Of a DNA stretch of 50,724 nt, positions 21,401 to 45,780 are shown one piece after another. The stretch is from Vicinamibacterales bacterium (GTDB lineage: Bacteria > Acidobacteriota > Vicinamibacteria > Vicinamibacterales > UBA2999). Location: positions 1-50,724 of the forward strand of contig JAUXWO010000058.1 of assembly GCA_030680175.1 (NCBI GenBank), in the 5' to 3' direction. Within the stretch, counting starts at the first letter, position 1. Each line of letters opens with the position of its first letter. Made by a program: the position numbers and the translations under genes. The notes under the pieces are model-generated. The model ran no database searches. It saw only the letters and a program-made list of their open reading frames with translations, and had not been told where the DNA came from.

Positions 21401-23438
<2,038 letters not shown>

Positions 23439-25355: not shown

Positions 25356-25358
25356 ACT

Positions 25359-26639: not shown

Positions 26640-26651
26640 GGCGGCGGCGGG

Positions 26652-27416
26652 CTAGCCTTCGGAGAATTCCACGATCACGGGGGCGTGGTCGCTCGTGCCA
26701 ACCTCGCGCTGGACCGTGGACGCAGTCACCCGCGGGAGGAGCGCCTCGGAGGCGGCGACGTAGTCGATGCGCCAGCCGATGTTGCGCTGCCGCAGGTTCC
26801 GCCACGGCGCCCACCACGTGAAGAGCTCCGCGTTTTCAGGCTCGCGGGCGCGGGCCACGTCCACGAGCCCATACGACAGGACGCGCTCCAGCAGCGCGCG
26901 CTCGTCCGCGCGTGTGCCCACCTGGTTCGGCTTGCGTTCCTTCGGATGGATGTCGAGGTCACTGCGTGTGACGTTCAGGTCCCCGCAGAGGACGAGCGGG
27001 TGGCCCGTGGCCTGCTGCGAGGCGGTCCAGTCGCCGAGCGCCTCGAGGAAGCGCAGCTTCGCGTTGTAGTCCTTGCCGCCGTTCGGCACATACACCGAGG
27101 CCAGCGTCAGCGCGCCCCCCGGCAGCGCGACCGTCGTCGTCGCCACCCGCTGCTCGAAGTCGAACGGCGGATGCACGAACGCCGGGGGCTCGGCGGTCAG
27201 GGCCTTCGACACCAGCAGCCCGACGCCCGAGTAGCCCTTCTCGCCGTGCCAGCAGGACCAGTAGCCGTCGAGGTCGCGCAGCTCGAACGGCAGCTGGTCG
27301 ATCGCGGCCTTGATCTCCTGCAGGCAGACGATGTCGGGGCGCTCGGTGGCGAGCCACTCGAGCAGCTGGGCCTGACGCGCGCGCAGGCCGTTCACATTCC
27401 AGGTGGCGATCTTCAT
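26652..27416 (-). CDS. xthA: exodeoxyribonuclease III (AP endonuclease)
   Basis: The protein has 254 residues, normal for the family. The start is fixed by MKIATWNVNGLRAR. The catalytic blocks of the exonuclease/endonuclease/phosphatase fold are all present: 'CLQEIKA' (metal Glu), 'YSGVGLLV', 'VYVPNGG', 'LCGDLNV' (Asp, Asn), 'WRIDYV' and C-terminal 'GTSDHAPV' (His). It cleaves DNA 5' of abasic sites and removes 3' blocks in base-excision repair, in the cytoplasm. The gene lies 61 bases downstream of a TetR gene on the same strand and converges with the sensor gene at 25359. Confidence 0.97.
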   Translation of the reverse strand: MKIATWNVNGLRARQAQLLEWLATERPDIVCLQEIKAAIDQLPFELRDLDGYWSCWHGEKGYSGVGLLVSKALTAEPPAFVHPPFDFEQRVATTTVALPGGALTLASVYVPNGGKDYNAKLRFLEALGDWTASQQATGHPLVLCGDLNVTRSDLDIHPKERKPNQVGTRADERALLERVLSYGLVDVARAREPENAELFTWWAPWRNLRQRNIGWRIDYVAASEALLPRVTASTVQREVGTSDHAPVIVEFSEG

Positions 27417-27477
27417 CGGCGGATCCGGGCGAGGGGGAACGAGGGCACCACGCGGGTGGAGGCGGTTCGGCATCGCG

Positions 27478-28104
27478 TCAGCTGCCGGCGGCCGTGAGGG
27501 CACGGTCGATGGCGGCACGGGCGCGGGCCAGCGCTGCCGGTGTGCCGTCGAGGAGCATCCCCGCGTTGGCGGCGGCCAGGAACGCGGCGACCTCGAAGGC
27601 GAGCTGGGCGACATCGGTGGACGGCGGGAGTTCACCGAGCGCCTGCGCCTCCCGCAGGTGGGCGAGGAGCCGATCGTGGATGGCGGCGACGATGGCGGTG
27701 ATGGCGTCGCGGACGGGGCCGGTCCGCGAGTCGAACTCGGCGACGGTCGCCGCGAAGAAGCAGCCGCCGGGGAAGACGCGCCGTTCGAGGTACGACAGGT
27801 ACGCCTCGCAGTGGACGATGAGGCGCGCCACTCCCGGGGGGGCGGCGTTGGCAGGGGCCAGCACCTCGGCCTCGAAGATCCGGCGCGCATGGTCGACGAC
27901 GGCGAGTTCCAGGTCCTCCTTGGACCCGAAGTGGGCGTAGAGCCCGCTCTTGCTCATCCCGAGCGCGGCCGCGAGGGTGCCGATCGACAGGCCTTCGAGC
28001 CCCTCGATGCTGGCCTGACGGGCGGCGGCGTCGAGGATGGACTGCCGGCTCCTCACCCCGTCCGCGCGCGGCTTCCGAGGGCGTTCCGGAAAGGGCATCG
28101 CCAT
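27478..28104 (-). CDS. TetR/AcrR-family transcriptional repressor
   Basis: The protein has 208 residues from the ATG at 28104; another ATG two codons in is possible. The helix-turn-helix is clear near residues 20-65: 'SRQSILDAAARQASIEGLEGLSIGTLAAALGMSKSGLYAHFGSKEDLELAVVDHA'. The C-terminal ligand domain has 'PGGCFFAATVAEFDSRTGPVRD', the style of the C-terminal domain found in YxaF/LmrA-like TetR proteins. A candidate promoter with a GAACG-AC-CGTTC palindrome between its -35 and -10 lies 40-70 bases upstream, which suggests autorepression. The inducer and other targets are unknown; exonuclease III follows on the same strand. Confidence 0.95.
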   Translation of the reverse strand: MAMPFPERPRKPRADGVRSRQSILDAAARQASIEGLEGLSIGTLAAALGMSKSGLYAHFGSKEDLELAVVDHARRIFEAEVLAPANAAPPGVARLIVHCEAYLSYLERRVFPGGCFFAATVAEFDSRTGPVRDAITAIVAAIHDRLLAHLREAQALGELPPSTDVAQLAFEVAAFLAAANAGMLLDGTPAALARARAAIDRALTAAGS

Positions 28105-28143
28105 CGGCCGAATCCTAGCACGTCCGTGCTTTCGCGGCCCGGA

Positions 28144-28172
28144 ATTACAAAGAACGACCGTTCGTCCGTGAA
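28144..28172 (-). promoter_or_regulatory. candidate tetR promoter with palindromic operator
   Basis: Read on the minus strand, TTCACG (28172-28167) and TGTAAT (28149-28144) are separated by 17 bases and resemble -35 and -10 hexamers. The perfect palindrome GAACG-AC-CGTTC (28152-28163) lies in the spacer, where a TetR dimer would block polymerase. A second palindrome, AGCACG-TC-CGTGCT (28117-28130), lies between the promoter and the start codon. Confidence 0.45.
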
Positions 28173-28173
28173 A

Positions 28174-28220
28174 AGGGGTCAGATCTTGATTCTGAGCGCA
28201 AGGATCAAGATCTGACCCCT
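28174..28220. repeat. 17-bp perfect inverted repeat, REP/RAYT-like palindrome
   Basis: Arms AGGGGTCAGATCTTGAT (28174-28190) and its exact complement (28204-28220) flank a 13-base loop. The AT-richer 'ggggtcagatcttgat' sequence contrasts with the surrounding GC. Palindromes opening with GGGGTCAG are common dispersed repeats mobilised by REP-associated tyrosine transposases; none is in the window. It could also act as a terminator for the gene ending at 28223. Confidence 0.65.
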
Positions 28221-28222
28221 GC

Positions 28223-29960
28223 TCACCAGTTGACGATGATGGGAAGAGAGGTCGGGCTGGGCTGGTCGATTTGGAGGACGAGCAGGAGTCGGCGGCCGTC
28301 AGGGCTGGCGTCCCACGAGGCGATCCCGGCCGGCGCCTCCAGTACGCGAACGGGGTCTCCCGCCCGAGCACCGATCCCATCGGCAAGGACCGGGATGGCG
28401 AGGATCTCACGACCCCGCCGGATGAACAGCGTCCGACCGTCCCGGCTCCACCGGGGCTCATGCCCGCCGCCCCGCGTGACCGGCACCCGGCGCTCGGGGT
28501 CCGATGACGGGAACCGGTCGAGGTAGACCTCAGGCCTCCCGGTGGCGTCCGAGACATACGCCATCCACGCGCCGTCAGGCGAGACCACGCCGCCATACTC
28601 GTCAAACGGCGTCGCGAGGTACTCGCGCACCGTGCCGTCGCGCGGCGACACGAGGCGCAGGTCGAAACCCCGACTCCCCAGCCTGCTCGCTCACGACCAG
28701 CCAGGGGCCCTCAGCCGTCCAGTCCGACAGCCGCGCCGGCCCCGCCGCCCGCCACACGGTCGCCTCCTCGAGTTCGCCGAGCGCACCGCGCACGACCACC
28801 GCACGCCCGCCGCTGACCCACGCCAGGCGCGCGCCATCGGGGGCCCAGACCGGATGATCGTCGGCGTCAATCGAGGGCGAGAGACGACGGGGCCGCCCGT
28901 CGCCGTCCATCGTCCACACATCCAGCGTGCCCAGCATGGGCTCCGGCTGAACGATCGCGACCTGGCGCCCATCCGGCCCGATGCGGACGGTGCCCATCGC
29001 GCCCGCGTCGCCGCGCGGCCCGTCGGCCGTCCCCTCGCGCGTGAACCACTGCAGGACCCGCGCCTGCGGCACGGGCGGCGCCGTCAGCAGCAGCCTCGAC
29101 GACGCAATCGTCGCGAACACCTCGCCACGGGGGCCTTGCCCGACCGGCAGGATGAGGAATCGCGGGCGTCCGAGCCGGCCCGTCCGCCGGTCGATCCGCT
29201 GCACCACCAGCGCCCCCTCCCTGAGCGTCACCACCTCGTCGCCGGTGATGAGCGCCTGCGCCGACCCTGCATCGAGCCGCGTGGCCTCGCCCGTCGCCCG
29301 CGTGAACGACCACAGGCCCGCGCGTGATGCGTCGGTCGACGTCACCAACGCGACGATGAGCCGGCCATCGCCGGTGAGCTGCGGGAAGCGATGGGAGGTG
29401 TCGCCGCGCGCGCGGTCGAGTGCTGTCGCTGGCTGCACCGGCCCGCCTGTGGCGGACACCCGCATCACCCCGCCGCCGCCGGGGGCGAAGAGCACCTCAT
29501 CGCCGGCGCCCCAGACCCCGCCGTGGGGATCCGGCGCGGGCGCCAGCGTGATCGCGGTTTCACCGTCACGCGCGATCACGCGGAGTTCGCCGTCCGCGAA
29601 GAAGCCGAGCCGCGACCCGTCCGGCGCCCAGAACGGCTGATGACCGCCTTCGGTCCCCGGCCATTCCCGCGTCTCGCCCGTCGACAGTTCCTGCAGGCGC
29701 ATCGTCCTGCCATCCGTCCCGGGGATGGCCACGTACCGGCCGTCCGGCGAGAGCGCCAGTCCAAAGGGGTGCTCGGCGCCGTGCAGGTCCACCCCCGGCG
29801 GGACCGGCCACTCCAGGCGGAGCGCCGGCGGGGCCGGCGCGGGCGGGGCCTCACGGAGATGGCGCACGGCCGGCACGGCGAGGCCCAGGGCCGTCAGCGC
29901 CAGCCCCGCCGCCAGCACGGGCCAGAACCTGCCGTCGCCGGGGCTTCGATCTATACTCAT
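28223..29960 (-). pseudogene. TolB/WD40-like beta-propeller protein, frameshifted
   Basis: One membrane-anchored propeller gene is split by a frameshift. The N-terminal part starts at an ATG at 29960, has one TM helix (residues ~12-32) and repeated blades ('LALSPDGRYVAIPGTDG', 'QPFWAPDGSRLGFFADG', 'HPVWAPDGARLAWVSGG'). It runs in frame to 'SEQAGESGF' near 28669. The rest (blades 'GVVSPDGAWMAYVSD' and 'EPRWSRDGRTLFIRRG', ending 'PIIVNW') continues in another frame to 28223. Deleting one T of the TTT at 28668-28666 restores continuity (SGF-DLRLVSPRDG). Read as it stands, the first frame runs on for about 23 nonsense residues to 28602. The indel may be a real lesion or a base-call error. The protein resembles the C-terminal half of acidobacterial kinase-TolB proteins, without a kinase. 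Confidence 0.8.
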
Positions 29961-29992
29961 CGATTCACGTCTGGTACAGGAGGAATGTCCGC

Positions 29993-30544
29993 ATGACGAC
30001 CCGTATTCTCGCCGTGCTGCTGACCGTCGCGGTGGCCAGCGCTCCCGCAGTCGCGTCGGCGCAGGAGGCGCAAGCGCCCACGCGGCGTCCCGACGTCATC
30101 TTCGTGCCCACGCCCGAAGAGGTCGTCGAGGCGATGCTGCAGGTGGCCAAGGTCACCAAAGATGACATTGTGTACGACCTCGGGTCGGGCGACGGCCGCA
30201 TTCCCGTCACCGCCGCGAAGAAGTTCGGCGCGCGCGGCGTGGGCATCGACATCGATCCCGTCCGCATCGCCGAAGCGCACGAGAACGTGAAGAAGAACGA
30301 GGTCGGCCACCTCGTGAAGATCGTGCAGGGCGACCTGTTCGAACAGGACCTGAGCGAGGCCACGGTGGTGACGCTCTACCTGCTGCCGTCGCTCAACCTG
30401 AAGCTCCGGCCCAAGCTGATGAAGGAGCTCCGGCCGGGCACCCGCATCGTCTCCCACGCCTTCGACATGGGCGACTGGAAGCCGGAGCAGGAGCTCGACG
30501 TGAACGGCCGGAAGGTCTACTTCTGGACGATCCCGAAGCAGTAG
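29993..30544 (+). CDS. exported class I SAM-dependent methyltransferase-like protein
   Basis: The protein has 183 residues with a strong AGGAGGA ribosome-binding site eight bases before the ATG. Residues 1-24 are a signal peptide (LAVLLTVAVASAPAVASAQ), so export to the periplasm is predicted. The mature part has the SAM-binding motif I 'VYDLGSGDGRIPVTAAKKFG', an acidic motif II 'GVGIDIDP', then 'QGDLFEQDL' and 'TLYLLPSLNLKLRPKLMKEL'. The DLGSGDGRI form resembles the DOT1/ATPSC-KMT-type lysine methyltransferases. SAM is not expected in the periplasm, so either the leader is a membrane anchor facing in or the protein has another ligand. It lies between a propeller gene and a glycosylasparaginase gene. 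Confidence 0.85.
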   Translation: MTTRILAVLLTVAVASAPAVASAQEAQAPTRRPDVIFVPTPEEVVEAMLQVAKVTKDDIVYDLGSGDGRIPVTAAKKFGARGVGIDIDPVRIAEAHENVKKNEVGHLVKIVQGDLFEQDLSEATVVTLYLLPSLNLKLRPKLMKELRPGTRIVSHAFDMGDWKPEQELDVNGRKVYFWTIPKQ

Positions 30545-30568
30545 CGCTCGCGCGTCCCGAGATCCCGC

Positions 30569-30601
30569 CACGGGGAGGCGGCCGTGCAGCCCCTCCCCGT
30601 G
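30569..30601. terminator. bidirectional hairpin between convergent genes
   Basis: A perfect 10-bp stem (CACGGGGAGG) with a 13-base loop lies between the convergent methyltransferase and glycosylasparaginase genes, 25 and 8 bases from their stops. There is no strong T-run on either side. Confidence 0.55.
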
Positions 30602-30608
30602 TCTCGTC

Positions 30609-31724
30609 CTACGCGTTCGGCCGGCCCTCCAGCAGCGCCTCGCACGGCAGCGTCTCCGGCCCCTTCCCGGTGCATACCGCGTAGCTCGCTTCGTACATCG
30701 ACACGCCCGCGTGCTCGCCCTTCGCGTTGACGATGTAGAAGTTGAGGCCGAAGTTCGGCAGGCCCCGCGCGTTGAGCAGGCGCTTCTCGACGGTGTTGGC
30801 CTGCACACGCTTCAGCGCCTCGAGGCCCGCGTCCTTCGGATGCCGTCCGCGCCGCATCTCCTCGACAATCAGGAACGAGCACAGGTTGAAGAGGTTGGCC
30901 TCGCCGCGCCCGGTCGATCCGGCCGCGCCCACCGTGCCGTCGACGTAGAGGCCGGCGCCGAGGATCGGCGAGTCGCCGACGCGCCCCGGGATCTTCCACG
31001 CGAGGCCGCTCGTGGTGGTCACGCCGCAGACCTCGCCGCGCGCGTTCACGCCGTTGCAGTTGATGGTGCCGTAGAAATGCTCGGGGTCGATCAGGCCGTC
31101 GCGCACCATGCCGAGGCCGGCCTGCAGGCTCTCCTCGCCGCGGGTCTTCGGATCGAGGAAGCGGGTCGGATCGGTGCGGCGCTTGAACTCCAGCCAGAGC
31201 GCGCGCGATCGCTCGGTGTTCAGATCGTCCTCGATCCGGAAGCCCATGTTGAACGCGAAGCGCTGCGCGTCCTTGCCGACGAGGAGGTGGTGATCGGTCT
31301 GGTCGAGCACCGCCTTGGCGACGAGCGACGGCGTGCGCACGCCTTCGAGACAGGCCACGGCGCCAGCGCGCCGCGTCGGGCCGTGCATGCAGCTGGCATC
31401 GAGCTGCACGAGGCCCTCGCCGTTCGGCAGCCCTCCGTAGCCGACGCTCGTGTCCTCGGGATCGAGTTCGACGATGTTGACCCCGGCGATCAGGGCGTCG
31501 AGCACGTCCGTGCCGCCGGTGATGAGATCGAACGCGGTCTGGACGCACACCTTGGGCCCACCGTTCGTGTAACGGTTGCCGTTGGCGGATGCGACGACCA
31601 CGGGGCGGACGCCGCCCGCCTGGACGGCCGGCGCGCGGCCGAACACGGGCGCGGGCGCCCCGAGCGCGAGCCCGGCGGCGGTGCTGGTCTGGACGAACTC
31701 GCGACGGGTCAGCTTCCTTGGCAT
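30609..31724 (-). CDS. glycosylasparaginase-type Ntn hydrolase, Tat-exported
   Basis: This family hydrolyses the bond between GlcNAc and the Asn side chain, or acts on isoaspartyl peptides or asparagine. The protein has 371 residues. The N-terminus has a twin-arginine leader (LTRREFVQTSTAAGLALGAP). The Ntn core is clear: 'VGYGGLPNGEGLVQLDASCMHG', autocleavage Thr near residue 220 in 'YGTINCNG', then 'GVTTTSGLAWKIPGRVGDSPILGAGLYVD' and 'GAAGSTGRGE'. Where classical members have His-Asp before the nucleophile, this one has Tyr-Gly, so self-cleavage efficiency or substrate may differ. GGAGGAGA precedes the ATG at 31724. It is divergent, 79 bases apart, from an oligosaccharyltransferase gene that makes the kind of bond this family breaks. 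Confidence 0.9.
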   Translation of the reverse strand: MPRKLTRREFVQTSTAAGLALGAPAPVFGRAPAVQAGGVRPVVVASANGNRYTNGGPKVCVQTAFDLITGGTDVLDALIAGVNIVELDPEDTSVGYGGLPNGEGLVQLDASCMHGPTRRAGAVACLEGVRTPSLVAKAVLDQTDHHLLVGKDAQRFAFNMGFRIEDDLNTERSRALWLEFKRRTDPTRFLDPKTRGEESLQAGLGMVRDGLIDPEHFYGTINCNGVNARGEVCGVTTTSGLAWKIPGRVGDSPILGAGLYVDGTVGAAGSTGRGEANLFNLCSFLIVEEMRRGRHPKDAGLEALKRVQANTVEKRLLNARGLPNFGLNFYIVNAKGEHAGVSMYEASYAVCTGKGPETLPCEALLEGRPNA

Positions 31725-31803
31725 CGGTCTCCTCCAGTGTGGGTGCGGGACTGCCCCGGGACACTACCACGAAGGAACGGGGACGAGAGTAGACTCCTGC
31801 GGG

Positions 31804-34050
31804 ATGTCGTTCGCGGGCAGGCTGGGGCAGATAGGGCGCGAGTACGGATTGCTCGGCGCGATTCTCGTCATCGCGGGCGGGATTCGGGTCTGGGGGCCGC
31901 GTGCCGAGGTGTTCACGCCGGACGGCGTGAGCCTCCTCGAGCCAGACGGGTGGTACCACCTGCGGCTCGTCGAGTCCCAGGTGCACAACTTTCCGTTCCG
32001 CGTGACGCACGATCCGTACGCGTCGCCGGACGGGATGTTCGTGCCGATCGCGCCGCTCTTCGATACCGTCATCGCGACGGCCGCCGTCCTCACGGGCGGC
32101 ACCTCCGCGAGCCCCGATCACATCGCGCGCGTGGCCACGCTCGTGCCGCCCGTCGCCGGGGTCCTCGCCGTCGCCCTCGTCTTCCTGCTGGGCCGCCTCG
32201 CCTTCGGCCGCCGGGCCGGGCTGCTCGCGGCCGCGCTCACGGCCATCCTGCCGGGGCCCTTCCTCGATCGCACCCTGCTCGGCTACGTCGACCATCACGC
32301 CCTCGAGGTGCTGCTCGCGCTTACCGTCCTCCTGGCGTTCGGCCGCGAAACCCTCCGCGCGGCGGACGGCCCCGGCGCGTCCTGGCGCACGATCGCGCGC
32401 CGCGCGCTGTGGCCGGGCTCCGCGCTCGGCCTGTACCTGCTCGCATGGGGGAGCGGTGCGTTCCTCGTCGCCGCCCTCGCGGTCTGGCTCCTCGTGCACG
32501 CCCTGCTCGACGATCACAGACGGCACGACGATGGAGGGCTGATGCGCGTGGCGGGCGGCGCGAGCCTGGTGGCGCTCGCGTGGGTGATCGCGTTCCAGCA
32601 TCCCGACATGCATCGCTACTGGTCGCAGGTGGTCGCGACGGCGGGGCTCGCGGGCCTCTGCCTGGCAATCGATCGCGTCCGCATCGTCACGCGTGGACGT
32701 GGTGGCGCGTGGCCCCTGCTCGCGGCAGGCGGTGGGCTCGCGGCGGCCACGGCGATCGCGCTGGCGGTGATGGCGCCGCGCCTCTTCGACGCGCTGCTGT
32801 TCGACATCGGGCGCTTCGCGCCGGCGCCGGAGCGGATGAGCGTGCTCGAGGCGCGTCCGCTGTTTCTGTTTTCGGGCGAGTGGAATGCCTGGCAGCCGTG
32901 GGCGTTCTTCCGCACCGGCTTCTACGTCGGCGCGCCGGCGCTGGTCCTGTTGCTCCTCGCGTCGATCCGGCGGCGTCGCCCCGTCTGGTTGCTGGTGGCG
33001 GTGTGGGGGCTGCTGATGCTGGCGGCGACGATCGGCCAGAACCGGTTCGGCTACTACCTCGTGCCCGCGCTCGCCCTGGGCGCCGGGTGGCTGGGCGCGC
33101 GGGTGCTCGACTGGGGCGGGGTGCCTGAGCAGGGCGGCCCGGAGGTCACACGGCGCGCCTCGATGCCGTTCGCGCGCGAGCTGTCCGTGGTGGCGGTGGC
33201 CGGGATCGCCTTCGGCCCCAACCTCGAGCCGGCGCTCAATACCACCGTGCGGGGCACGCCGCTCACCGCGCCGTGGCGCGAGGCGACGACGTGGCTGCGG
33301 GAGGCAACGCCGGAGCCGTTCGGCGACGCCGGATATTACGTCGCCCGGTACGATCGCGACCCGCGCGTGGCGGGCTACACCGTCATGGCGTGGTGGGACT
33401 ACGGGTACTGGCTGCTGCAGCAGGGCCGCCGCGTGCCCGTGGCCAACCCGACGCAGTCGGGGGCGGAGGTGGCCGCGCGCTTCTTCTCCGCGCTCGACGA
33501 GCGGGAGGCGCTGGCGCTGCTCGACGGCGTGCGCGCCCGGTACGTGGTGGCGGACTTCGAAGTGCCCTTCTCGATCGGCGCCAGCGGCTTCCGCGGCAAA
33601 TACCACGCGATGGCCGCGTGGGCCGGCGTCGACGAGACGCGGGACCACGCGGTGTACTTCGAGCCGGATGGCGCGGGCGGCGTGCGCGCCGTGCCGCTCT
33701 TCCACGAGACGTACTACCGATCGATGATCTTCCGGCTGTACGCGGCGGGCGGGGCGGCGATGGCGCCCTCGCGGGCGACGGTGGTCCGGTGGCGGACGCA
33801 GCCGACGGCGGTGGCCGGGGTGACCGCGCGCATGCTCGTCGAGGCGCGCGATTTCGAGGAGGTGGGGGAGGCGCGCCGGTATCTCGCGGCGCTCGGCCCC
33901 GGGGCATCTGCCCTCGTTGGTCGTGATCCGCTGCAACCACCGGTGGCTGTCGAGCCGCTCGACGGGCTGGCGCACGCGTGGGACAGCCCGCAGCGGTACT
34001 CGGACCTGCACGGCCTGCCCGCGATCCGGATTTTTGTCCGAGGCCGGTGA
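31804..34050 (+). CDS. STT3/AglB/PglB-type oligosaccharyltransferase
   Basis: This membrane enzyme transfers a lipid-linked glycan to Asn in Asn-X-Ser/Thr sequons on the outer face of the membrane. It has 748 residues. The N-terminal half has about 11-13 hydrophobic helices, and the C-terminal half is periplasmic. Known catalytic and binding motifs are all visible: Asp48 in 'EPDGWYHLR', 'RTLLGYVDHHALE' (Asp163, Glu168), an SVxE motif 'SVLE' (Glu349), and sequon-binding WWDYG (residues 530-534). The DHH and SVLE forms look more archaeal (AglB) than epsilon-proteobacterial. The ATG at 31804 is the first Met before TM1; frames opening further upstream overlap the divergent asparaginase promoter. 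Glycan synthesis and flippase genes are not in the window. Confidence 0.92.
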   Translation: MSFAGRLGQIGREYGLLGAILVIAGGIRVWGPRAEVFTPDGVSLLEPDGWYHLRLVESQVHNFPFRVTHDPYASPDGMFVPIAPLFDTVIATAAVLTGGTSASPDHIARVATLVPPVAGVLAVALVFLLGRLAFGRRAGLLAAALTAILPGPFLDRTLLGYVDHHALEVLLALTVLLAFGRETLRAADGPGASWRTIARRALWPGSALGLYLLAWGSGAFLVAALAVWLLVHALLDDHRRHDDGGLMRVAGGASLVALAWVIAFQHPDMHRYWSQVVATAGLAGLCLAIDRVRIVTRGRGGAWPLLAAGGGLAAATAIALAVMAPRLFDALLFDIGRFAPAPERMSVLEARPLFLFSGEWNAWQPWAFFRTGFYVGAPALVLLLLASIRRRRPVWLLVAVWGLLMLAATIGQNRFGYYLVPALALGAGWLGARVLDWGGVPEQGGPEVTRRASMPFARELSVVAVAGIAFGPNLEPALNTTVRGTPLTAPWREATTWLREATPEPFGDAGYYVARYDRDPRVAGYTVMAWWDYGYWLLQQGRRVPVANPTQSGAEVAARFFSALDEREALALLDGVRARYVVADFEVPFSIGASGFRGKYHAMAAWAGVDETRDHAVYFEPDGAGGVRAVPLFHETYYRSMIFRLYAAGGAAMAPSRATVVRWRTQPTAVAGVTARMLVEARDFEEVGEARRYLAALGPGASALVGRDPLQPPVAVEPLDGLAHAWDSPQRYSDLHGLPAIRIFVRGR

Positions 34051-34078
34051 TTGTGTTGACACGAGGAGATCAGAGACA

Positions 34079-34304
34079 GGTCCGGCGGGTCCGACGGATC
34101 CGACAGATCTGGCGGGTCTGGCGGGTCCGACAGGTCCGCGTGGTGAGGGGTTGATCTCTGGGTCGATTCTTGTTCTGCCGGACGGCGTGGCGCCGCCGGC
34201 CGGGTACTCGTTCGTTGGCTCGACCCAGGTGCTCGTCAACACGAACGACGCCGCCCCCCGCGTCCGCGGATGGTGCAGCTGCACCTGTACCGCCGCAAAA
34301 CTAG
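34079..34304 (+). pseudogene. collagen-like protein C-terminal remnant; fills the 315-base spacer
   Basis: One frame reads eight Gly-X-Y triplets from 34079 to 34150 (GPA GPT DPT DLA GLA GPT GPR GEG, two Gly decayed to Asp). It continues 'LISGSILVLPDGVAPPAGYSFVGSTQ', the head typical of collagen-like proteins that end in a short beta module. After the C-run near 34255 the frame shifts to 'MVQLHLYRRK', and one more A in the A-run would give RRKN-stop at the TAG 34302-34304. No start codon lies in frame in the spacer. Nearby, 34319-34362 holds further ggtccggac-like repeats. I read this as a decayed gene fragment rather than a functional CDS. Confidence 0.55.
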
Positions 34305-34365
34305 CGACCCAAGAGCCGGGTGGGTCCGGACCCACCGGACCTGTCCGGACCTGTCCGGACCCGCT

Positions 34366-35853
34366 TCATCTCACCGGCACGAACCGGCCCGCGGCGGACG
34401 CGCGCAGGCGCGCGAGATCCTCGGCGCGCGATACCGAGAGCGGCACCGTCTCGGCCAGCTCCTCGAGCAGCACCGGCGTCGTCAGCGGCACGTCGCGGTG
34501 CAGCGCGCGATAGAGCGCCGACGTCACCGCCTGCTCGATCTCCGCACCGCTGAAGCCCTCGCTGGCCGCGACCAGCGCCCCGAGGTCATGCGTCGCCGGC
34601 TCCTGCCGCCTGAGTGCCAGGTGAATCCGGAAGATCGCGTCGCGCTCCGGCGCGTCGGGCAGATCGACGAAGAAGATCTCATCGAAGCGGCCCTTGCGCA
34701 GCAGCTCCGGCGGCAGCGCCGACAGGTCGTTGGCCGTCGCCGCCACGAACACGCCCTCGCGGCGCTCCTGCATCCACGTGAGGAACGACCCGAGCAGCCG
34801 GCGCGACACGCCGCCATCGCCCTCGCCGCCCGCCGGCGCGAACCCCTTCTCGATTTCATCAATCCACAGCACCACCGGCGCCAGCGACTGGGCGAGGTCG
34901 AGCGCGCGCCGGAGGTTCTTCTCCGTCTCGCCGATGTACTTGTCGAAGAGCCGCGCCGCATCCAGCTTCAGCAGCGGCATCTGCCACTCGCGGGCGATGA
35001 CCTTCGCGGCGAGCGACTTGCCGCAGCCCTGCACGCCGACGATCAGCACACCGCGCGGCGGGGCGAGGTTCAGCGCCCGCGCCTCGGGGCCGAAGCCGAT
35101 CTTCGCGCGCGAGAGCCACGCACGGAGCCGGCCGAAGCCGCCGAGCTCGAACTGGTTGTCCTCGAGCGGCCGGAACTCGAGCAGGCCGCCATCCTGAATC
35201 GCATCCGCCTTGTGGCGCCGCAGCCGCGCGATGTCTGTCGCATCCAGCGCGCCATCATCGAGCGCCGCGCGGGCGATCGCCTGCCGCGCCTGGTTCAGCG
35301 TCAGGCCGGCCAGCGCGTCCACGAGGCGCTCGCGCTCCTCCGCCGACAGCGCGACGGTGATGCGATGCGTCTGCCGCAACGACCGCGACAGCCGCTGCAG
35401 CATGCCGGCCAGCTCCTGCCGGCCGGGCAGCTCGAGGCGGACGGGCACGGCGCGATCCGCCAGTTCCGGCGGCAGCGACAGGTCGTGCCCCGAGAGCACG
35501 GCGGTGCTCCGCGTCCGGCCGAAGGCCTGGGTGGCCTCGCGGCACGCGCGCACGACCGCCGGCGTGCTCAAGTGCGCGCCGATGTCCTTCAGGTGGAAGA
35601 TCCCGCGGACGGTCAGCGATCGCAGGTGCTTGAGGAGGACCAGCGGATCCGCGGTGCCGTGGATCGGCAGCGTCGTCGCGCCCTCGCGCGCCAGTCCCGT
35701 CGTGATCGTCCACGTGAAGAGCGGCAGCTCGAGGTCGCGGGCGACGGCGGCCAACAGGGCATCGACGCGCTCCTCTTCGACGGTCTCGATCACCACCAGC
35801 GGGTGCATCGATCGCACAAGCGTCTTGATGTCGTGCAGGGATGTAGACGGCAT
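34366..35853 (-). CDS. AAA+ ATPase of the Ycf46 type
   Basis: The protein has 495 residues. Residues 1-~230 form a degenerate N-terminal ATPase-like domain ('LHDIKTLVRSMHPLVVIETVEEERVDALL', 'GIFHLKDIGAHL', 'AVLSGHDLSLPPEL'). The second AAA domain is complete: Walker A 'GVQGCGKSLAAK' (Lys279), Walker B 'VVLWIDEIEKGF' (Asp332, Glu333), sensor 1 'FVAATAND', arginine finger 'LRKGRFDEIFFVDLP' and sensor 2 'GFSGAEIEQAV'. This matches Ycf46/FtsH-like AAA proteins without a protease domain. The role is probably remodelling of a protein complex; the client is unknown. An in-frame start at 35886 would add eleven residues. Confidence 0.9.
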   Translation of the reverse strand: MPSTSLHDIKTLVRSMHPLVVIETVEEERVDALLAAVARDLELPLFTWTITTGLAREGATTLPIHGTADPLVLLKHLRSLTVRGIFHLKDIGAHLSTPAVVRACREATQAFGRTRSTAVLSGHDLSLPPELADRAVPVRLELPGRQELAGMLQRLSRSLRQTHRITVALSAEERERLVDALAGLTLNQARQAIARAALDDGALDATDIARLRRHKADAIQDGGLLEFRPLEDNQFELGGFGRLRAWLSRAKIGFGPEARALNLAPPRGVLIVGVQGCGKSLAAKVIAREWQMPLLKLDAARLFDKYIGETEKNLRRALDLAQSLAPVVLWIDEIEKGFAPAGGEGDGGVSRRLLGSFLTWMQERREGVFVAATANDLSALPPELLRKGRFDEIFFVDLPDAPERDAIFRIHLALRRQEPATHDLGALVAASEGFSGAEIEQAVTSALYRALHRDVPLTTPVLLEELAETVPLSVSRAEDLARLRASAAGRFVPVR

Positions 35854-35991
35854 GGCGCCGCGCGCGATCCTATCACCGGGGGACACGGTGGCGTGTGGTC
35901 GACGCCGCCCGCCGGGCGGCCCGCGGAATCGCGGCTGACCAGAGGCGCTGGCGAGACCTCTTCAGTCGAGACACTCCGCTAGACTACTGGC

Positions 35992-37182: not shown

Positions 37183-37186
37183 CGCG

Positions 37187-39319: not shown

Positions 39320-39943
39320 TTACGGGGCCGTGAGGCCGGCGTCCCGCGCGTGCGCGGCCGCGCGGGCCGCCTCGCGCGCCGCGCGCTTCCGCTGGCGCCG
39401 TTCGGCAATCCGGTAGCTCCACGCATACGACACCCAGGCCCCCGCCACGGCCCACGGCAGGCAGCCGAGGAGCGCCGGCACCCCGAGAACCCGGACGCTG
39501 AGCATCACCCGCGTCAGGAACCCGTGGTCCGCGGCCTCCGTCGCCCGCTGCCACAGCGCGAGAAACGCGCGGTAGCCGGCGGCCTGATCCGCGTCGCCGA
39601 GCATCAGCATGCCGGTGAGGTAGAACAGGTAGTAGAGCGGCAGCATCGTGAAGACGTTGCTGATCCACGTCCACGCGAGCCCCTGCAGCAGGCTGAACTC
39701 CCAGCCGATCCGCCGCGCGACCATCCACAGCCCGGCGATGACGAACGACTGCGCGCCGACGAGCGGGGTGAGGCCCCAGAAGACGCCCACGGCAACGCCG
39801 CGCGCCGTGAACTCCGGCGGGTGCGGGCTGCGGAACAGCGGGATAATCAGGCGGTACCGGATCACGCGCGCGAGCGCCGTCAGGGCGCCACCGCGCCTCG
39901 CCGGCCCCGGCCGATCCTCGGATGCGAACTTCGACGACGACAC
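39320..39943 (-). CDS. DUF2062 membrane protein
   Basis: The protein has 207 residues from a GTG at 39943; its stop abuts the kinase gene's stop. The core 'SPHPPEFTARGVAVGVFWGLTPLVGAQSFVIAGLW' with two to three hydrophobic helices and 'GLAWTWISNVFTMLPLYYLFY' is typical of DUF2062 proteins, which are often fused to or adjacent to glycosyltransferases. The C-terminus is a basic Arg/Ala-rich tail. The function is unknown. It is transcribed divergently from heme A synthase, 54 bases away. Confidence 0.85.
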   Translation of the reverse strand: MSSSKFASEDRPGPARRGGALTALARVIRYRLIIPLFRSPHPPEFTARGVAVGVFWGLTPLVGAQSFVIAGLWMVARRIGWEFSLLQGLAWTWISNVFTMLPLYYLFYLTGMLMLGDADQAAGYRAFLALWQRATEAADHGFLTRVMLSVRVLGVPALLGCLPWAVAGAWVSYAWSYRIAERRQRKRAAREAARAAAHARDAGLTAP

Positions 39944-39997: not shown

Positions 39998-40930
39998 GTG
40001 CGCCTGTCTTCATTCCAGCGGCTGGCGATTGCCACCACCGCCATCACCTATCTGCTGATCCTCGTCGGCGGGCTGGTCCGCGCCTCGGGCGCCGGCCTCG
40101 GCTGCCCCGACTGGCCCCGCTGCTTCGGGGGATGGATCCCGCCGATGTCGGTGGCGGACCTGCCGGCGGCCTTCGACCCCGCGCAGTTCAACCCCGCCCT
40201 GATGTGGACGGAGTACCTGAACCGGCTGCTCGGCGTGACGGTGGGGCTCTTCATCTTCGCGACGCTCGTCTCCGCGTGGCGCCACCACCGCCACACGCCG
40301 CGGGTGTTCCGTCCGATCCTGGCGGCCTTCCTGCTCACCGGGTTCCAGGGCTGGCTCGGCGGGATGGTCGTCGCGCAGGAACTGGCCGGCTGGATCGTGA
40401 CCGCGCACATGATCGTCGCGCTCGTCATCGTCGCGCTGCTGATCTACGCGACGTTCTACGCCGTGGCCGGCACCGAGGTGGCGGAGGGCGTCGGCGCCGC
40501 GCGCCGCCTCCTGGGCCGCGCCACGTATGCGGTGACGGGCGTGATGCTCGTGCAGGTGGCGCTTGGCGCGCAGGTGCGCGAAGCCATCGATGTCGGGCTG
40601 GAGAAGGTCGCGCGCGCCGACGTGATCGAGGCGCTCGGCCTCGTCCACCTGCTTCACCGCGACGGGGCAGTGCTGGTGCTCGGCCTCGTGGTGCTGCTGT
40701 GGTTCCGCGCCTGGCAGGCGCATCGCCACGAGCCGGCCCTGATGCGCGCCGCCTGGGTCGTCGTCGGGATCGTCGCCGCCCAGATCGCCACCGGGGCGGT
40801 CCTCTCGTACTTCGCGGTGCCGCCCGCCGCGCAGGTGGCGCACCTGACGCTCGCCGCGCTGCTGCTCGGCGCGCTCATGGTGCTCGCGCTGCTGGCCTAC
40901 CGGCTGCCCGAACCCCCGGCGGCGGCGTGA
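39998..40930 (+). CDS. ctaA: heme A synthase (CtaA/COX15)
   Basis: The enzyme oxidises the C8 methyl of heme O to a formyl group to make heme A for cytochrome oxidase, in the inner membrane. It has 310 residues and about eight helices as two four-helix halves. Seen: Cys36/Cys42 in 'GCPDWPRC' (the extracellular Cys pair), Glu72 in 'TEYLNRLLG', His in 'TAHMIVAL', 'LVHLLHRDGA' and 'VAHLTLAAL'. The family position usually filled by His after the Glu (ExxH) is Asn75 here. AGGAG lies eight bases before the GTG at 39998. No ctaB or oxidase subunits are in the window. Confidence 0.93.
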   Translation: MRLSSFQRLAIATTAITYLLILVGGLVRASGAGLGCPDWPRCFGGWIPPMSVADLPAAFDPAQFNPALMWTEYLNRLLGVTVGLFIFATLVSAWRHHRHTPRVFRPILAAFLLTGFQGWLGGMVVAQELAGWIVTAHMIVALVIVALLIYATFYAVAGTEVAEGVGAARRLLGRATYAVTGVMLVQVALGAQVREAIDVGLEKVARADVIEALGLVHLLHRDGAVLVLGLVVLLWFRAWQAHRHEPALMRAAWVVVGIVAAQIATGAVLSYFAVPPAAQVAHLTLAALLLGALMVLALLAYRLPEPPAAA

Positions 40931-41078: not shown

Positions 41079-41705
41079 GTGGACCCCCTGCTCGCCGCGT
41101 ACCTCGCCTTCACCTTCCTGCTCGTCATCACCCCGGGCGCGACGACGGCGGTCGTGATCCGCAACACGCTGGCGGGCGGCACGCGCGCGGGGCTGACGGC
41201 GGCGGCCGGCGCGGCAGCCGGCAACACGGCGCACGCGTGCGTGGCGGGCCTCGGGGTGGCGGTGCTGGTTGCGCGCCAGCCGGACTTGCTCACGGTGCTC
41301 CGGATCGCCGGGGCGCTCTACCTGTCGTGGCTCGGCGTCGTCACGCTCTGGGCCGCCGTCCGTCTTCCTGATGGCGGCGTGCGCGCACCGGATCTCGGCG
41401 CCGTGGCGGCCGGTCAGGATCTCCCGAGCTTCCGCGAGGGCGTGGCCGTCAACCTGTTGAACCCGGCGATCGCGAGCTTCTACCTCGCCGTGGTGCCGTC
41501 GTTCGTCCCCGCGGGCGCGCCGCGCGGGTGGTTCGCGGTCCTCGCCGCGTGTCATGTGCTGATGGCGCTGGCGTGTCACAGCGTGTGGGCCGTGGGACTC
41601 GACCGCCTGCGTGCGTTCTTCCACCGGCCGGGCGCCCGCCGGCTCCTCCAGGCGGGCACGGGCCTGGCGCTCCTCGCGCTGGCGGGACGCGTGTTCATTT
41701 CCTGA
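41079..41705 (+). CDS. LysE/RhtB-family amino-acid exporter
   Basis: This 208-residue inner-membrane exporter has six hydrophobic helices. The family signature is at the N-terminus ('YLAFTFLLVITPGATTAVVIRNTLAGGTRAGLTAAAGAAAGNT'), with 'LLTVLRIAGALYLSWLGVVTLW' and 'FREGVAVNLLNPAIASFYLAVVPSFV' further on. Export of an amino acid or related metabolite is likely; which one cannot be told. The GTG start follows the right end of the MITE-like element by eight bases with no clear ribosome-binding site, so translation may be weak or the element may have displaced the native leader. Confidence 0.9.
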   Translation: MDPLLAAYLAFTFLLVITPGATTAVVIRNTLAGGTRAGLTAAAGAAAGNTAHACVAGLGVAVLVARQPDLLTVLRIAGALYLSWLGVVTLWAAVRLPDGGVRAPDLGAVAAGQDLPSFREGVAVNLLNPAIASFYLAVVPSFVPAGAPRGWFAVLAACHVLMALACHSVWAVGLDRLRAFFHRPGARRLLQAGTGLALLALAGRVFIS

Positions 41706-41766: not shown

Positions 41767-43368
41767 ATGCCCGTGCGCGCCCTTGCTGCCTCGATCGTGG
41801 CCCCGCCGGCCGTCGAGTCCGATCCCGACCTGATCGCGCGGTTCCTGAGCGATGCGGCGCACTACCCGGGCGGCCACCTGACGGGTGTCGTCCGGCCGCG
41901 ATCGACCGAGGAGGCGAGCGCCGCGCTGGCCGGGGGCGGGCCGTGGCTGGCCGTGGGCGCGCAGTCCTCGCTCACGGGCGGGGCGACGCCGATGGGCGCC
42001 ACGGTCCTCAGCACCGAACGGCTCACGTCCCTCGTCATCGACGGACCGGATCGCGTACGCGCGGGGGCGGGCGTGACGCTCCAGGCGCTGCAGGACGCGT
42101 TGGCGGCGCGCGGCCTGTGGCTGCCGCCGGTGCCCACCTGGCTCGGCGCGACCGTGGGCGGCGCGGTGGCGACCAATGCGGCCGGGGCCGCCACGTTCAA
42201 GTACGGCGCGATGCGCGAGTGGGTGGAGGGCCTGCGCGTGGTGCTCGCGAGCGGCGAGACGCTGACGCTGGCACGCGGAGCGGCCCGTGCCACCGGGGCG
42301 GGGGTGATCGAGATCGACACGGCGCGCGGCCTGATCGCCGTGCCGGTGCCGCCCTACGCGATGCCCGACGTGCCGAAGCGATCGGCCGGCTACTTCGCGG
42401 CGCCGGGCATGGATCTCGTGGACCTCTTCATCGGCAGCGAGGGGACGCTCGGCGTGATCACCGAGGCGACGCTGCGCGTCGCGCCGCGGCCCGCCGGGGT
42501 GTGCTGGGCGCTCGTGCCGATGCGCGACGAACCGGCGGCGATTGCGCTGGTCGCTGACCTGCGCCGCGCCTCGCGCGCGACCTGGGCGACGGGCGAGGCC
42601 GCCGGGATCGACGTGTCGGCGATCGAGCACCTCGACCACCGATCGCTCGAGATCCTGCGCGAGGATGGCGCCGATCGCCGCCACGACGTGCGCCTGCCCC
42701 CGGACGCCGGGGTCGTCCTGCTGGTGCAGATCGAGGTGTCCGCCGCGGCGGCCGCGCGCGACCTGTGGTCGGACCTCGCGCGGGCCACGGAGGTGGACGC
42801 CGAAGATGCGCCGCTGGTCCGCCTGTGCCGGCTGCTGCAGGCCCACGGCGTGCTCGAGGACACGGAGGTGGCGCTGCCCGGCGACCTGCGGCGCGCCCGC
42901 GCGTTCGTCGAACTGCGCGAGGCGGTGCCGGCCGGCGTGAATGCGCGCGTGGCCGCGGCGCAGGCGTCCATCGACCCGCGCATCACCAAGACCGCGGCGG
43001 ACATGATCGTGCCGTTCGATCGCTTCGGCGCGTTGATGACGGCGTGCCGCGCCCTGTGCGCCGCGCGCGATCTCGACCTGGTGGTGTGGGGCCACATCTC
43101 CGATGGCAACGTGCATCCGAATGTGATCCCGCGGCGCGTCGAAGACGTCGCGCACGGCCGCGAGGCGATCCTCGAGCTGGGCCGCCTCGTGATCGCCATG
43201 GGGGGCTGTCCGCTGGCCGAGCACGGCGTGGGCCGGAATCCCGTCAAGCAGCAGCTGCTCGAACTGCTGTACGGCCGGGCTGGCATCGACGCGATGCGCG
43301 CGGTGAGGCGCGCGCTCGACCCTGGCGATCGCCTGGCGCCGGGCGTGCTCTTCGACGGTCACGGGTGA
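41767..43368 (+). CDS. FAD-linked oxidase, GlcD/D-lactate dehydrogenase type
   Basis: The protein has 533 residues. An FAD-binding type-4 domain (residues ~35-215) shows 'GVVRPRSTEEASAAL', 'AVGAQSSLTGGATP', 'VRAGAGVTLQALQDAL' and 'VGGAVATNAAGAATFKYGAMREWVEGLRVVLASGE'. The C-terminal FAD-oxidase domain has 'ITKTAADMIVPFDRF', 'VVWGHISDGNVHPNVIP' (metal/substrate His) and 'AEHGVGRNPVKQQLLELLYG'. It should oxidise a D-2-hydroxy acid such as D-lactate or glycolate, passing electrons to the quinone pool or a cytochrome. No GlcE/GlcF partner is adjacent, so a single-subunit dehydrogenase is likely. Confidence 0.9.
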   Translation: MPVRALAASIVAPPAVESDPDLIARFLSDAAHYPGGHLTGVVRPRSTEEASAALAGGGPWLAVGAQSSLTGGATPMGATVLSTERLTSLVIDGPDRVRAGAGVTLQALQDALAARGLWLPPVPTWLGATVGGAVATNAAGAATFKYGAMREWVEGLRVVLASGETLTLARGAARATGAGVIEIDTARGLIAVPVPPYAMPDVPKRSAGYFAAPGMDLVDLFIGSEGTLGVITEATLRVAPRPAGVCWALVPMRDEPAAIALVADLRRASRATWATGEAAGIDVSAIEHLDHRSLEILREDGADRRHDVRLPPDAGVVLLVQIEVSAAAAARDLWSDLARATEVDAEDAPLVRLCRLLQAHGVLEDTEVALPGDLRRARAFVELREAVPAGVNARVAAAQASIDPRITKTAADMIVPFDRFGALMTACRALCAARDLDLVVWGHISDGNVHPNVIPRRVEDVAHGREAILELGRLVIAMGGCPLAEHGVGRNPVKQQLLELLYGRAGIDAMRAVRRALDPGDRLAPGVLFDGHG

Positions 43369-43455
43369 GCGTTCGACGGTGCGCGTTGGCGACGCGCCCG
43401 GATCAGGGGCGCCCCGGGTTTGTCCCGTCCGCGTGGATCAGGTACGATCAGCCGG

Positions 43456-44241
43456 ATGCTCGAAGACGTGCAACGCGCGCTGGAAGGCCGGCCGCGGGAT
43501 GCGCGCTTCGTGGTGCTGTCCGACTTCGACGGAACGCTCGCCGAGTTCCACGACGATCCCGCCGCGCCCGTGCTCACGCCGGCGCGGCGCGCGCTCCTGA
43601 CGGCGCTCGCCGTGCGCCCCGACATCACCGTCGGGCTCATCAGCGGCCGGCGTCTCAACGACCTGCGCGACCGCACGACGCTCCCGGCCAATGTCTATCA
43701 TGCCGGGCTGCATGGCCTCGAGCTGGCGATCGAGGATCGGCGCTGGCAGCATCCCGACCTGCGCGAGACCCGCGACGTGGTCGCCGAACTCGTGGCGCGC
43801 ATTCGCGCGCGCGTCGGCGACGTGCCCGGCCTCCGCCTCGAAGAGAAGGGCGTGGCCCTCACGGTCCACGTGCGCGGCGTCGATCCCGCGATCCGCGAGG
43901 CCGTCCTGGCGCGCGCCGAAGCCTGCGCCGACCCGTGGCTCGACGCCGGCCAGCTCAAACGCCTCGTCAGCAGCCAGGCCCGCGAGTACCTCCCCAACAT
44001 CCCGTGGAACAAGGGCGACGCGCTCCGCTGGATCGCGCGCGACGTGCGGGTGGAGTACGGCCGCCCGCCGTGGGTCGTCTTCCTGGGCGATGACGTGACG
44101 GACGAGGACGCGTTCGTGGCGATCGACCGCGGCATGGCGATTGTGGTCGGTCCCCGGCCGTCGGTCGCCCGCTGGCGGCTGCGGGACCCTGCCGAGGTTG
44201 AACAGCTGTTGCGGTGGATCGCCGCCGAGGAGACAGGGTAA
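43456..44241 (+). CDS. otsB: trehalose-6-phosphate phosphatase
   Basis: This is a HAD-superfamily enzyme of 261 residues that removes phosphate from trehalose-6-phosphate. The nucleophile motif is 'LSDFDGTLAEF' (Asp23, acid Asp25). Motif II is 'VGLISGRRLNDL', and a cap follows with 'YHAGLHGLELAIED' and 'KGVALTVHVRG'. Motifs III/IV are 'NKGDALRWIA' and 'FLGDDVTDEDAF'. The start at 43456 is preferred; an in-frame start at 43420 would add 12 residues outside the family alignment. It is followed 15 bases later by otsA, giving an otsB-otsA operon. Confidence 0.95.
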   Translation: MLEDVQRALEGRPRDARFVVLSDFDGTLAEFHDDPAAPVLTPARRALLTALAVRPDITVGLISGRRLNDLRDRTTLPANVYHAGLHGLELAIEDRRWQHPDLRETRDVVAELVARIRARVGDVPGLRLEEKGVALTVHVRGVDPAIREAVLARAEACADPWLDAGQLKRLVSSQAREYLPNIPWNKGDALRWIARDVRVEYGRPPWVVFLGDDVTDEDAFVAIDRGMAIVVGPRPSVARWRLRDPAEVEQLLRWIAAEETG

Positions 44242-44256
44242 GGTGGGGGCGACGTG

Positions 44257-45780
44257 ATGACCGCGGCCGAACTCGTGGCGTCGCTCGCATCCCGCCTGGA
44301 TGGGGTCAAGCTCGTGGTGGTCGCCAACCGCGAGCCCTACATCCACGAACTGGACGTGCGTAAGCCGCGCGGCTGGTGGGATCGCCTCCGTGGCCGGCCC
44401 GCGTCCTCGACACTCCGCTGGACCCGTCCGGCCAGCGGCCTGGTCACCGCCCTCGATCCCGTCATGCGCGCCTGCGGCGGGACCTGGGTGGCCCACGGCA
44501 GCGGGAGCGGCGACCGTGCCGCGTCCGACGCCGCCGGCCGTGTCGCCGTGCCGCCCGACGCGCCGTCCTACACGCTGCGGCGTGTGTGGCTCTCGCCCGA
44601 GGAGGAAGAGGGCTACTACTACGGGTTCAGCAACAACGCCCTCTGGCCGCTCTGCCACATCGCCTACGCGCGTCCCGTCTTCAACGAGGCCGACTGGCAG
44701 CACTACGCCGCGGTCAACCGCCGCTTCGCCGACACGGTGCTCGAGGAGATCGCGGGCACACGCGCGATCGTCTTCGTGCAGGACTACCACTACGCGCTGC
44801 TGCCGCGCATGATCAAGGACGCACGGCCCGACGCCGTCGTCTGCCAGTTCTGGCACATCCCGTGGCCGAACCCCGAGGCGTTCCGCATCTGCCCGTGGCA
44901 GGAGGCCGTGCTCGATGGGTTGCTCGGCAACGACCTGCTCGGCTTTCACATCCAGTACCACTGCAACAACTTCGTCGAGACCGTCGACCGCACGCTCGAA
45001 GCGCGCCTCGACGCCGAGACGTTCACCGTGCACCGGCGGGGCCATAAAACCGCGGTGAAGCCCTTCCCGATCAGCATCGATCCGGGGCTCTGGGCCACCG
45101 AGGCGACCGGGCGCGCCTGGGCGTCGGAGGTGGCGGCCACGCGCCGGTCACTCGGCCTCCGCGACGAGCGGCTGCTGATGGGCGTGGACCGGCTCGACTA
45201 CACAAAGGGGATCCCGGAACGCCTGCGCGCGCTGGACCGGCTGCTGGAGAGCCGTCCCGAGTGGCGCAAGCGCGTCGTGCTGCTGCAGATTGGCGCGCCG
45301 TCCCGCGATCATCTGGACCGCTATCAGTCGCTCAGCGACGAGGTCGACCACCTCGTGGCGGCCATCAACGAGCGCCACGGCGCCTCGTCCTGGCGCCCCG
45401 TGATCTACCGGCGCCAGCACCACGAGGCCGAGGACATCGCCGCCCTGTACCGCGCGTCGGACGCCTTGGTCGTCTCGTCGGTCCACGACGGCATGAACCT
45501 CGTGGCCAAGGAGTTCGTGGCGGCGCGCGGCGACGAACGCGGCGTGCTCCTGCTGTCGCGGTTCACCGGCGCCGCGCGGTCGATGGCGGAAGCGGTGCAG
45601 GTGAATCCGTTCGCCACCGATGAATTCGCCGAAGCCCTGCACGACGCCCTGATGATGCCCGCGGACGAGCAGGCGCGGCGGATGCGCAGCCTCCGGTCCC
45701 GCGTCCATGGCCACACCGTCTTCGACTGGGCAGAGAAGATGCTGACGGCCGCCTGCCGGATCGGCGAGACGGGACGGTAG
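44257..45780 (+). CDS. otsA: trehalose-6-phosphate synthase (GT20)
   Basis: This 507-residue retaining GT-B glycosyltransferase joins glucose from a nucleotide sugar to glucose-6-phosphate. Marks: 'LVVVANREPYIHE' at the N-terminus, 'SGLVTALDPVM', 'GYYYGFSNNALWPLCH', 'VFVQDYHYALLP', 'FWHIPWPNPEAFRICPW', 'LGNDLLGFHIQYHCNNFVETVDR', 'GVDRLDYTKGIPERLRALDRLL' and the nucleotide-binding 'VSSVHDGMNLVAKEFVA'. The start is the ATG at 44257, with an in-frame GTG immediately before it; GGTGGGGG lies upstream. With otsB and mscL it forms an osmotic-stress group. The donor (UDP- or GDP/ADP-glucose) is not determined from sequence. Confidence 0.96.
   Translation: MTAAELVASLASRLDGVKLVVVANREPYIHELDVRKPRGWWDRLRGRPASSTLRWTRPASGLVTALDPVMRACGGTWVAHGSGSGDRAASDAAGRVAVPPDAPSYTLRRVWLSPEEEEGYYYGFSNNALWPLCHIAYARPVFNEADWQHYAAVNRRFADTVLEEIAGTRAIVFVQDYHYALLPRMIKDARPDAVVCQFWHIPWPNPEAFRICPWQEAVLDGLLGNDLLGFHIQYHCNNFVETVDRTLEARLDAETFTVHRRGHKTAVKPFPISIDPGLWATEATGRAWASEVAATRRSLGLRDERLLMGVDRLDYTKGIPERLRALDRLLESRPEWRKRVVLLQIGAPSRDHLDRYQSLSDEVDHLVAAINERHGASSWRPVIYRRQHHEAEDIAALYRASDALVVSSVHDGMNLVAKEFVAARGDERGVLLLSRFTGAARSMAEAVQVNPFATDEFAEALHDALMMPADEQARRMRSLRSRVHGHTVFDWAEKMLTAACRIGETGR

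Follow-up and report, generated by a model that had tools for sequence, protein, structure and literature searches.

The locus described here raises the question of whether two neighbouring genes, one resembling enzymes that attach glycans to asparagine and the other resembling enzymes that cleave the glycan-asparagine bond, belong to one dedicated system. Both genes lie in the window, by which we mean the whole 50,724-nucleotide stretch that was analysed, from a Vicinamibacterales bacterium of the phylum Acidobacteriota (contig JAUXWO010000058.1, assembly GCA_030680175.1). One encodes an AglB/STT3-type oligosaccharyltransferase (OST) of 748 amino acids (aa) (P0001; 31804..34050, plus strand, with the start ATG at 31804 and the stop at 34050), as identified by Pfam, PDB and predicted-fold matches. 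The other encodes an Asparaginase_2 protein of the N-terminal nucleophile (Ntn) hydrolase class, nearest to glycosylasparaginase, with a Tat-type signal (P0002; 371 aa; 30609..31724, minus strand), as identified by Pfam, PDB and NCBIfam. The two are divergently oriented and separated by an intergenic region of 79 bp (31725..31803), the geometry that the first-pass annotation of this DNA had described, and the codon-position G+C of both frames is gene-like for this DNA. We consider it probable that the OST is of the single-subunit AglB type and the hydrolase an exported Ntn-hydrolase, both with the activities predicted from their families, and that they are neighbours because each holds its place in an old chromosomal block and not as a dedicated module. 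The interest of the locus is the bacterial AglB clade to which the OST belongs rather than the OST-hydrolase pair.

The oligosaccharyltransferase and its catalytic residues

Both Pfam domains of the OST passed their cut-offs (STT3, 73.4 bits against 24.5; AglB_core-like, 60.8 bits against 27), and the protein was the single STT3 (PF02516) match at E <= 0.001 across the assembly (4.98 Mb, 143 contigs). Its best relative in the PDB was AglB of Archaeoglobus fulgidus (AfAglB; 3waj, E 4.7e-51), followed by isolated AglB core domains and then by eukaryotic STT3. The sole NCBIfam match was TIGR04154, the archaeal STT3 associated with the archaeosortase A system (E 7.9e-124, residues 16-669), although its score of 414.8 bits is below the cut-off of 450. 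An AlphaFold (AF2) model built from 37 rows (pLDDT 92.3, pTM 0.92) has the GT-C membrane fold with an outer core domain that defines GT66. In structural alignments (Foldseek was also run) the model matched AfAglB with Z scores of 36.9-41.1, the best being 3wak (Z 41.1 over 663 residues, rmsd 3.0), compared with 25.8-32.3 for eukaryotic STT3, 28.4-29.5 for the C-mannosyltransferase DPY19 and 21.4-22.8 for PglB. The OST shares with AfAglB (3waj, 3wak, 5gmy, 7e9s; CAZy GT66) the metal residues, the WWDYG motif and a GKYxAMA stretch. It differs in that identity is 25-27% in the structural alignments, in its length (748 aa against a chain of 875 residues), and in an insertion before the GK, the Lys of which is Arg in nine family relatives. 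Campylobacter PglB, the bacterial N-OST, is alike in fold class and presumably in reaction, but it is far more distant than AglB, and no PglB-type core was found in the Pfam scan at E <= 0.1. From the sequence, motif, NCBIfam and structure matches together, we conclude that the window encodes, in an acidobacterium, an AglB-type OST with its catalytic residues intact and, by prediction, the corresponding activity. A link to an archaeosortase or exosortase, prompted by TIGR04154, was rejected, PF09721 not being found in the window's genome; this exosortase family was present in 12 of the 43 genomes of the window's family (11 over cut-off), including three of the 10 that carry an OST.

Metal-binding and catalytic roles are established for the corresponding residues of AglB and PglB and for the WWD motif. 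In the alignment, D47, D161, H163, E360 and W550-W551-D552 of AfAglB correspond to D48, D163, H165, E349 and W530-W531-D532 of the OST. On the plus strand, the D48 codon lies at 31945..31947, those of D163-H164-H165 (AfAglB D161-H162-H163) at 32290..32298, that of E349, in an SVLE motif where AfAglB has TIAE, at 32848..32850, and the WWDYG motif (residues 530-534; AfAglB 550-554) at 33391..33405; E168 extends the second of these to DHH..E. Neither the 14 phylum rows nor the 37 bacterial rows showed any variation at D48, D163, E349 and D532, and H165, E168, W530 and W531 were conserved in at least 90% of the 37 bacterial rows. In what we take to be the DK region, D584 was likewise conserved in at least 90% of these rows and Lys was the consensus; this Lys is K599 in the window OST, Arg in nine family relatives and Leu or Phe in two others. 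Alignment A3 contained 36 of 38 rows (L131 and L140 excluded), and the 38-row list behind it was already without L134, L135, L137, L150 and hits below 350 bits. The motifs D48, DHH..E, SVLE and WWDYG picked out in the first-pass annotation are thus present, with Pfam STT3 and AglB core scores that make chance untenable, and its description of the STT3 as archaeal in style agrees with AglB being the best relative in both sequence and fold.

The mechanism of AglB and PglB is established, and the following steps are modelled on it. The OST would reside in the cytoplasmic membrane and accept a glycan carried by a polyprenyl lipid at the outer face; D48, D163, H165 and E349 would hold a divalent metal, W530-W531-D532 would recognize the Ser/Thr at position +2 of an N-X-S/T site, and the glycan would be transferred to the Asn amide.

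Certain features would also suit a GT-C transferase that uses a different acceptor or forms a different linkage, as in protein O- or C-glycosylation or in the synthesis of a cell-envelope polymer. DPY19 superposes well too, the Tyr of WWDYG is replaced by Gln in nine family relatives (eight WWDQG, one FWDQG), and possible O-glycosylation has been reported for the archaellum of a Chloroflexota species (PMC12488501). However, sequence and fold both point clearly to AglB as the best match, the metal and WWD positions are conserved, and the AglB core domain scores over its cut-off; we regard a transferase of this other kind as decidedly improbable. A connection with the bacterial archaellum was set aside, AglB appearing nowhere in the main text of the Chloroflexota paper (PMC12488501). 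In one relative with an STT3 gene (G008; L056, frame 8763-11090, minus strand), the loop after the DHH helix contains short, near-identical RQEVPS-like repeats.

The hydrolase and the conserved chromosomal block

The surroundings of the two genes were compared with 24 stretches from relatives. In the window's family the block begins with a gene of the endonuclease/exonuclease/phosphatase family (i; 26652..27890, minus), a PD40 repeat protein (j; 28602..29960, minus) and a methyltransferase-fold protein identified by Pfam (k; 29993..30544, plus), which relatives retain whether or not they have the OST or the hydrolase. The hydrolase and the STT3 gene follow where they are present, and then a COX15/CtaA-type haem A synthase (p; 39998..40930, plus; PF02628, 169.6 bits), a LysE-type translocator (q; 41079..41705, plus) and genes for an FAD-linked oxidase, a trehalose phosphatase and a trehalose-6-phosphate synthase (r, s, t; 41767..45780, plus). 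Both OST and hydrolase were found in the block, divergently arranged, in the window and in G001, G006 and G007, which together represent two genera (the contig of G007 ends just past the hydrolase). The block contained STT3 but no hydrolase in G003, G004, G005 and G008, and the hydrolase but no STT3 in G038, G040 and G042; in G010 and G011 the hydrolase was kept on the methyltransferase side, again with no STT3. An STT3 gene lacking an adjacent hydrolase was also seen in G025, whose contig offers only about 2 kb upstream, in G030 and at the named locus L105. Within the family-level clade, four of 11 STT3 loci therefore have the two genes side by side; no other bacterial OST locus examined does, some of these loci having short flanks. 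Among the best 80 of 324 named OST loci, a hydrolase lay within the available flanks in one, that of G001. Compared across Acidobacteriota, the pairing is not conserved, and each gene also occurs alone in the block.

The hydrolase matched Pfam Asparaginase_2 with 173.2 bits (cut-off 27). The Tat signal noticed in the first-pass annotation was recovered by TIGR01409, barely over the curated cut-off (17.2 bits against 16.7), so that export is predicted. The best PDB relative was the glycosylasparaginase of Flavobacterium (1p4k, E 1.6e-48), the best L-asparaginase or isoaspartyl peptidase being found at E 4e-24; besides the Tat signal, the only NCBIfam match was beta-aspartyl-peptidase, far below cut-off (95 of 567 bits). 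The predicted nucleophile after self-cleavage is T220 (codon 31065..31067, minus strand), the counterpart of T152, and T220, T238, R248 and D251, which align with T152, T170, R180 and D183, were invariant in 15 rows; we take these glycosylasparaginase residues to be the nucleophile and substrate positions. The hydrolase thus resembles the Flavobacterium/Elizabethkingia enzyme (1p4k, 9gaf) in its nucleophile and its Thr/Arg/Asp substrate site. In contrast, all 15 rows have Gly219 directly ahead of the nucleophile, where 9gaf has the Asp that belongs to self-cleavage; Gly-Thr at this position is usual in isoaspartyl peptidases. Residues 1-60 were unaligned to glycosylasparaginases in both pairwise and profile searches, and presumably correspond to the region in which the substrate-contacting Trp and Phe of glycosylasparaginase lie. 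The hydrolase is nearest to glycosylasparaginase, and its predicted substrate would be one such as GlcNAc-Asn, Asn or a beta-aspartyl peptide. It would be exported, cleave itself to expose T220 and then hydrolyse such small beta-amides of aspartate as are left by protein breakdown, acting as a widespread acidobacterial catabolic enzyme. In a tree of hydrolases, window-type enzymes were separated from a paralogue group (support 100) that holds copies of G003, G005, G008 and G025; in G004 and G002 a window-type copy is encoded at another genomic location.

Across 396 sampled phylum genomes, the hydrolase was found in 241 (E <= 1e-20), namely in 16 of the 26 with an OST and in 225 of the 370 others (odds ratio 1.03, p = 1.0). 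The 26 are genomes with an OST match at E <= 1e-20, of which 11 exceed 440 bits and 15 are weaker (76-200 bits, among them the shortened frame of G002). In the family (43 genomes), where weak hits (PF02516 20-29 bits; PF22627 21-37 bits) were not counted as AglB-type OSTs, here or in the block counts, the window-type hydrolase was present in five of 10 OST genomes and in 10 of 33 others (p = 0.28). Eight of these 10 OST genomes are the window's own and seven members of genus g2.

The first-pass annotation had suggested a writer/eraser module, in which the OST would add N-glycans and the hydrolase strip them from the same proteins. The divergent adjacency over 79 bp, kept in four genomes of two genera, and the predicted action of both proteins outside the cytoplasm would fit this suggestion. 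It is opposed by the separate occurrence of the two genes in the block, by their non-adjacency in seven of the 11 family-clade loci and by the absence of any association over the 396 genomes. In addition, glycosylasparaginases are described in PMC6960285 as restricted to Asn-oligosaccharides that carry a single amino acid and as requiring free alpha groups, and the Lactobacillus casei enzyme as inactive on glycoproteins, while a title in the reference list of the same paper states that the alpha-amino group is not required. An enzyme limited to glycosyl-Asn with a single amino acid could therefore salvage but hardly erase. On the grounds of block independence, the lack of phylum-wide association and these substrate limits, we rejected the writer/eraser pairing, to which we attach next to no credence. 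The case carries a caution, in that a tempting divergent pair dissolved once the surrounding conserved block was compared.

Several observations weigh against our reading of the locus. Since adjacency is kept in two genera, shared regulation is possible. When any close hydrolase (E <= 1e-100) was counted in the family, nine of 10 OST genomes had one compared with 11 of 33 others (p = 0.003), a count that ignores kinship and mixes paralogues. On the side of glycan supply, no glycan-assembly gene was found among the ten neighbours scanned (24261-40965), and flippase evidence was thin, with no PF01943 match in the window's genome and a single PF14667 match, confined to a frame of 183 aa (flippase types beyond these two were not searched).

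The same family-level excess bears on the other suggestion of the first-pass annotation, a salvage module in which the hydrolase, co-regulated with the OST, would recycle GlcNAc-Asn from the cell's own N-glycoproteins or from imported plant or fungal ones. Such recycling would also accord with glycosylasparaginase being the nearest solved relative and with the conserved Thr/Arg/Asp site. Terriglobus is an acidobacterium, too. A characterised peptide N-glycosidase (PNGase) from Terriglobus roseus, mentioned in PMC6960285, is a further point in favour. On the other hand, the hydrolase is common in genomes that have no OST, its NCBIfam match, far below cut-off, is to beta-aspartyl-peptidase, and Gly instead of Asp precedes the nucleophile. 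Salvage based on PNGase was rejected, no PNGaseA-family (PF12222) enzyme being found in the 43 family genomes (PNGase F type and endoglycosidases were not searched). Overall we judge a co-regulated salvage module unlikely.

Archaeal-type oligosaccharyltransferases in bacteria

The best 80 of 324 OST loci matched in a profile scan of named genomes belong to Acidobacteria, Dehalococcoidia/Chloroflexi, planctomycetes, archaea and one Clostridiales record. A quick 85-row tree placed 52 bacterial rows together on one side of a branch with support 99; one bacterial row on a long branch (G368) was grouped with the archaeal rows. A set of 20 acidobacterial rows formed a group (support 97) beside planctomycete rows, within a Dehalococcoidia-rich group; G350, of the same phylum as the window, was placed just outside these 20, and the window OST belonged to a group of 10 rows with its own family (support 100). 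The tree held no Archaeoglobus-type euryarchaeal AglB and no PglB rows. It also excluded five duplicate contigs (L104, L107, L136, L137, L141), seven short or weak rows (L150, L158, L160, L167, L177, L179, L181), hits spanning <= 350 model positions, weaker phylum hits and G413.

In a 2016 phylogeny of Stt3/AglB (PMC4973528), a few bacterial homologues fell inside euryarchaeal AglB, a placement read there as transfer from archaea on at least two occasions. These homologues are, like the window protein, archaeal-type OSTs in bacteria, but neither Acidobacteria nor Chloroflexi occurs in the main text of that paper. Desulfovibrio OSTs have been described as active in E. coli, where they glycosylate minimal N-X-T sites (PMC4894442). 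The statement in the first-pass annotation that N-glycosylation is little known outside epsilon-proteobacteria is accordingly fair but incomplete, given the Desulfovibrio enzymes and the inferred transfer of aglB. In a targeted literature search, which covered few subscription journals, no title or abstract start named an acidobacterial, chloroflexotal or planctomycete OST; this is weak evidence for the novelty of the acidobacterial OST.

Tentatively, and with somewhat less than even confidence, we propose that Acidobacteriota, Dehalococcoidia and Phycisphaerae share an old archaeal-type AglB clade, which moved from one bacterial phylum to another and was thereafter handed down by descent. It would run general N-glycosylation of exported proteins, as an optional trait that has sometimes been lost in the window's family, and the hydrolase could use the degraded products. 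Bacterial N-linked glycosylation has been studied mainly through epsilonproteobacterial PglB and a few Desulfovibrio enzymes. With a conserved archaeal-type clade of OSTs in Acidobacteriota, Dehalococcoidia and Planctomycetes, the known range of bacterial Asn glycosylation would become wider, new single-subunit OSTs would be available in which sequon and donor range could be compared, and the passage of an archaeal pathway into bacteria could be traced.

Other observations were made among these relatives. Three Dehalococcoidia loci carry tandem AglB-type OST frames: L110 (2423-4771 and 4695-7076), L120 (5905-9114 and 9105-11459) and L126 (2676-5786 and 5914-8283). In G002, where the block genes are retained, the shortened STT3 frame (L235, about 9000-10300, G002:C54) joins the protein start and end in one frame and is missing the catalytic middle, which reflects either real decay or an assembly effect. 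In the phylum genome G105 (L032, L046), nine AglB-core matches lie on different contigs, all of them weak (best E 1.4e-8).

Glycan donor supply and other neighbouring genes

Three polyprenyl-phosphate sugar transferase proteins (PF00953) were found in the window's genome. The first is MraY, recognized by its signature and by its neighbours FtsW, a GT28 protein and a Mur ligase; the second, on contig C6, adjoins a GT4-type glycosyltransferase and lies 1.2 kb from an ABC exporter, and the third, on contig C104, has a PMT_2-type protein and an asparagine synthase nearby. We count these three proteins, like the neighbours of OST genes described below, in favour of our reading of the OST. Some parts of lipid-linked glycan synthesis exist in the genome, and none is linked to the OST. 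Elsewhere in the bacterial clade, 98 neighbours of OST genes included seven GDP-mannose dehydratase/RmlD/epimerase proteins, five nucleotidyltransferases, four ABC ATPases and three GT1/GT4 glycosyltransferases, counted with no control set; these neighbours (alignment A4) are 98 of 183 open reading frames from 23 of 24 loci, roughly the nearest and chosen by hand. Within the window itself, three hybrid histidine kinases with receiver domains are encoded at 16525-23486 and 37163-39319, two of them flanking an M20 peptidase gene.

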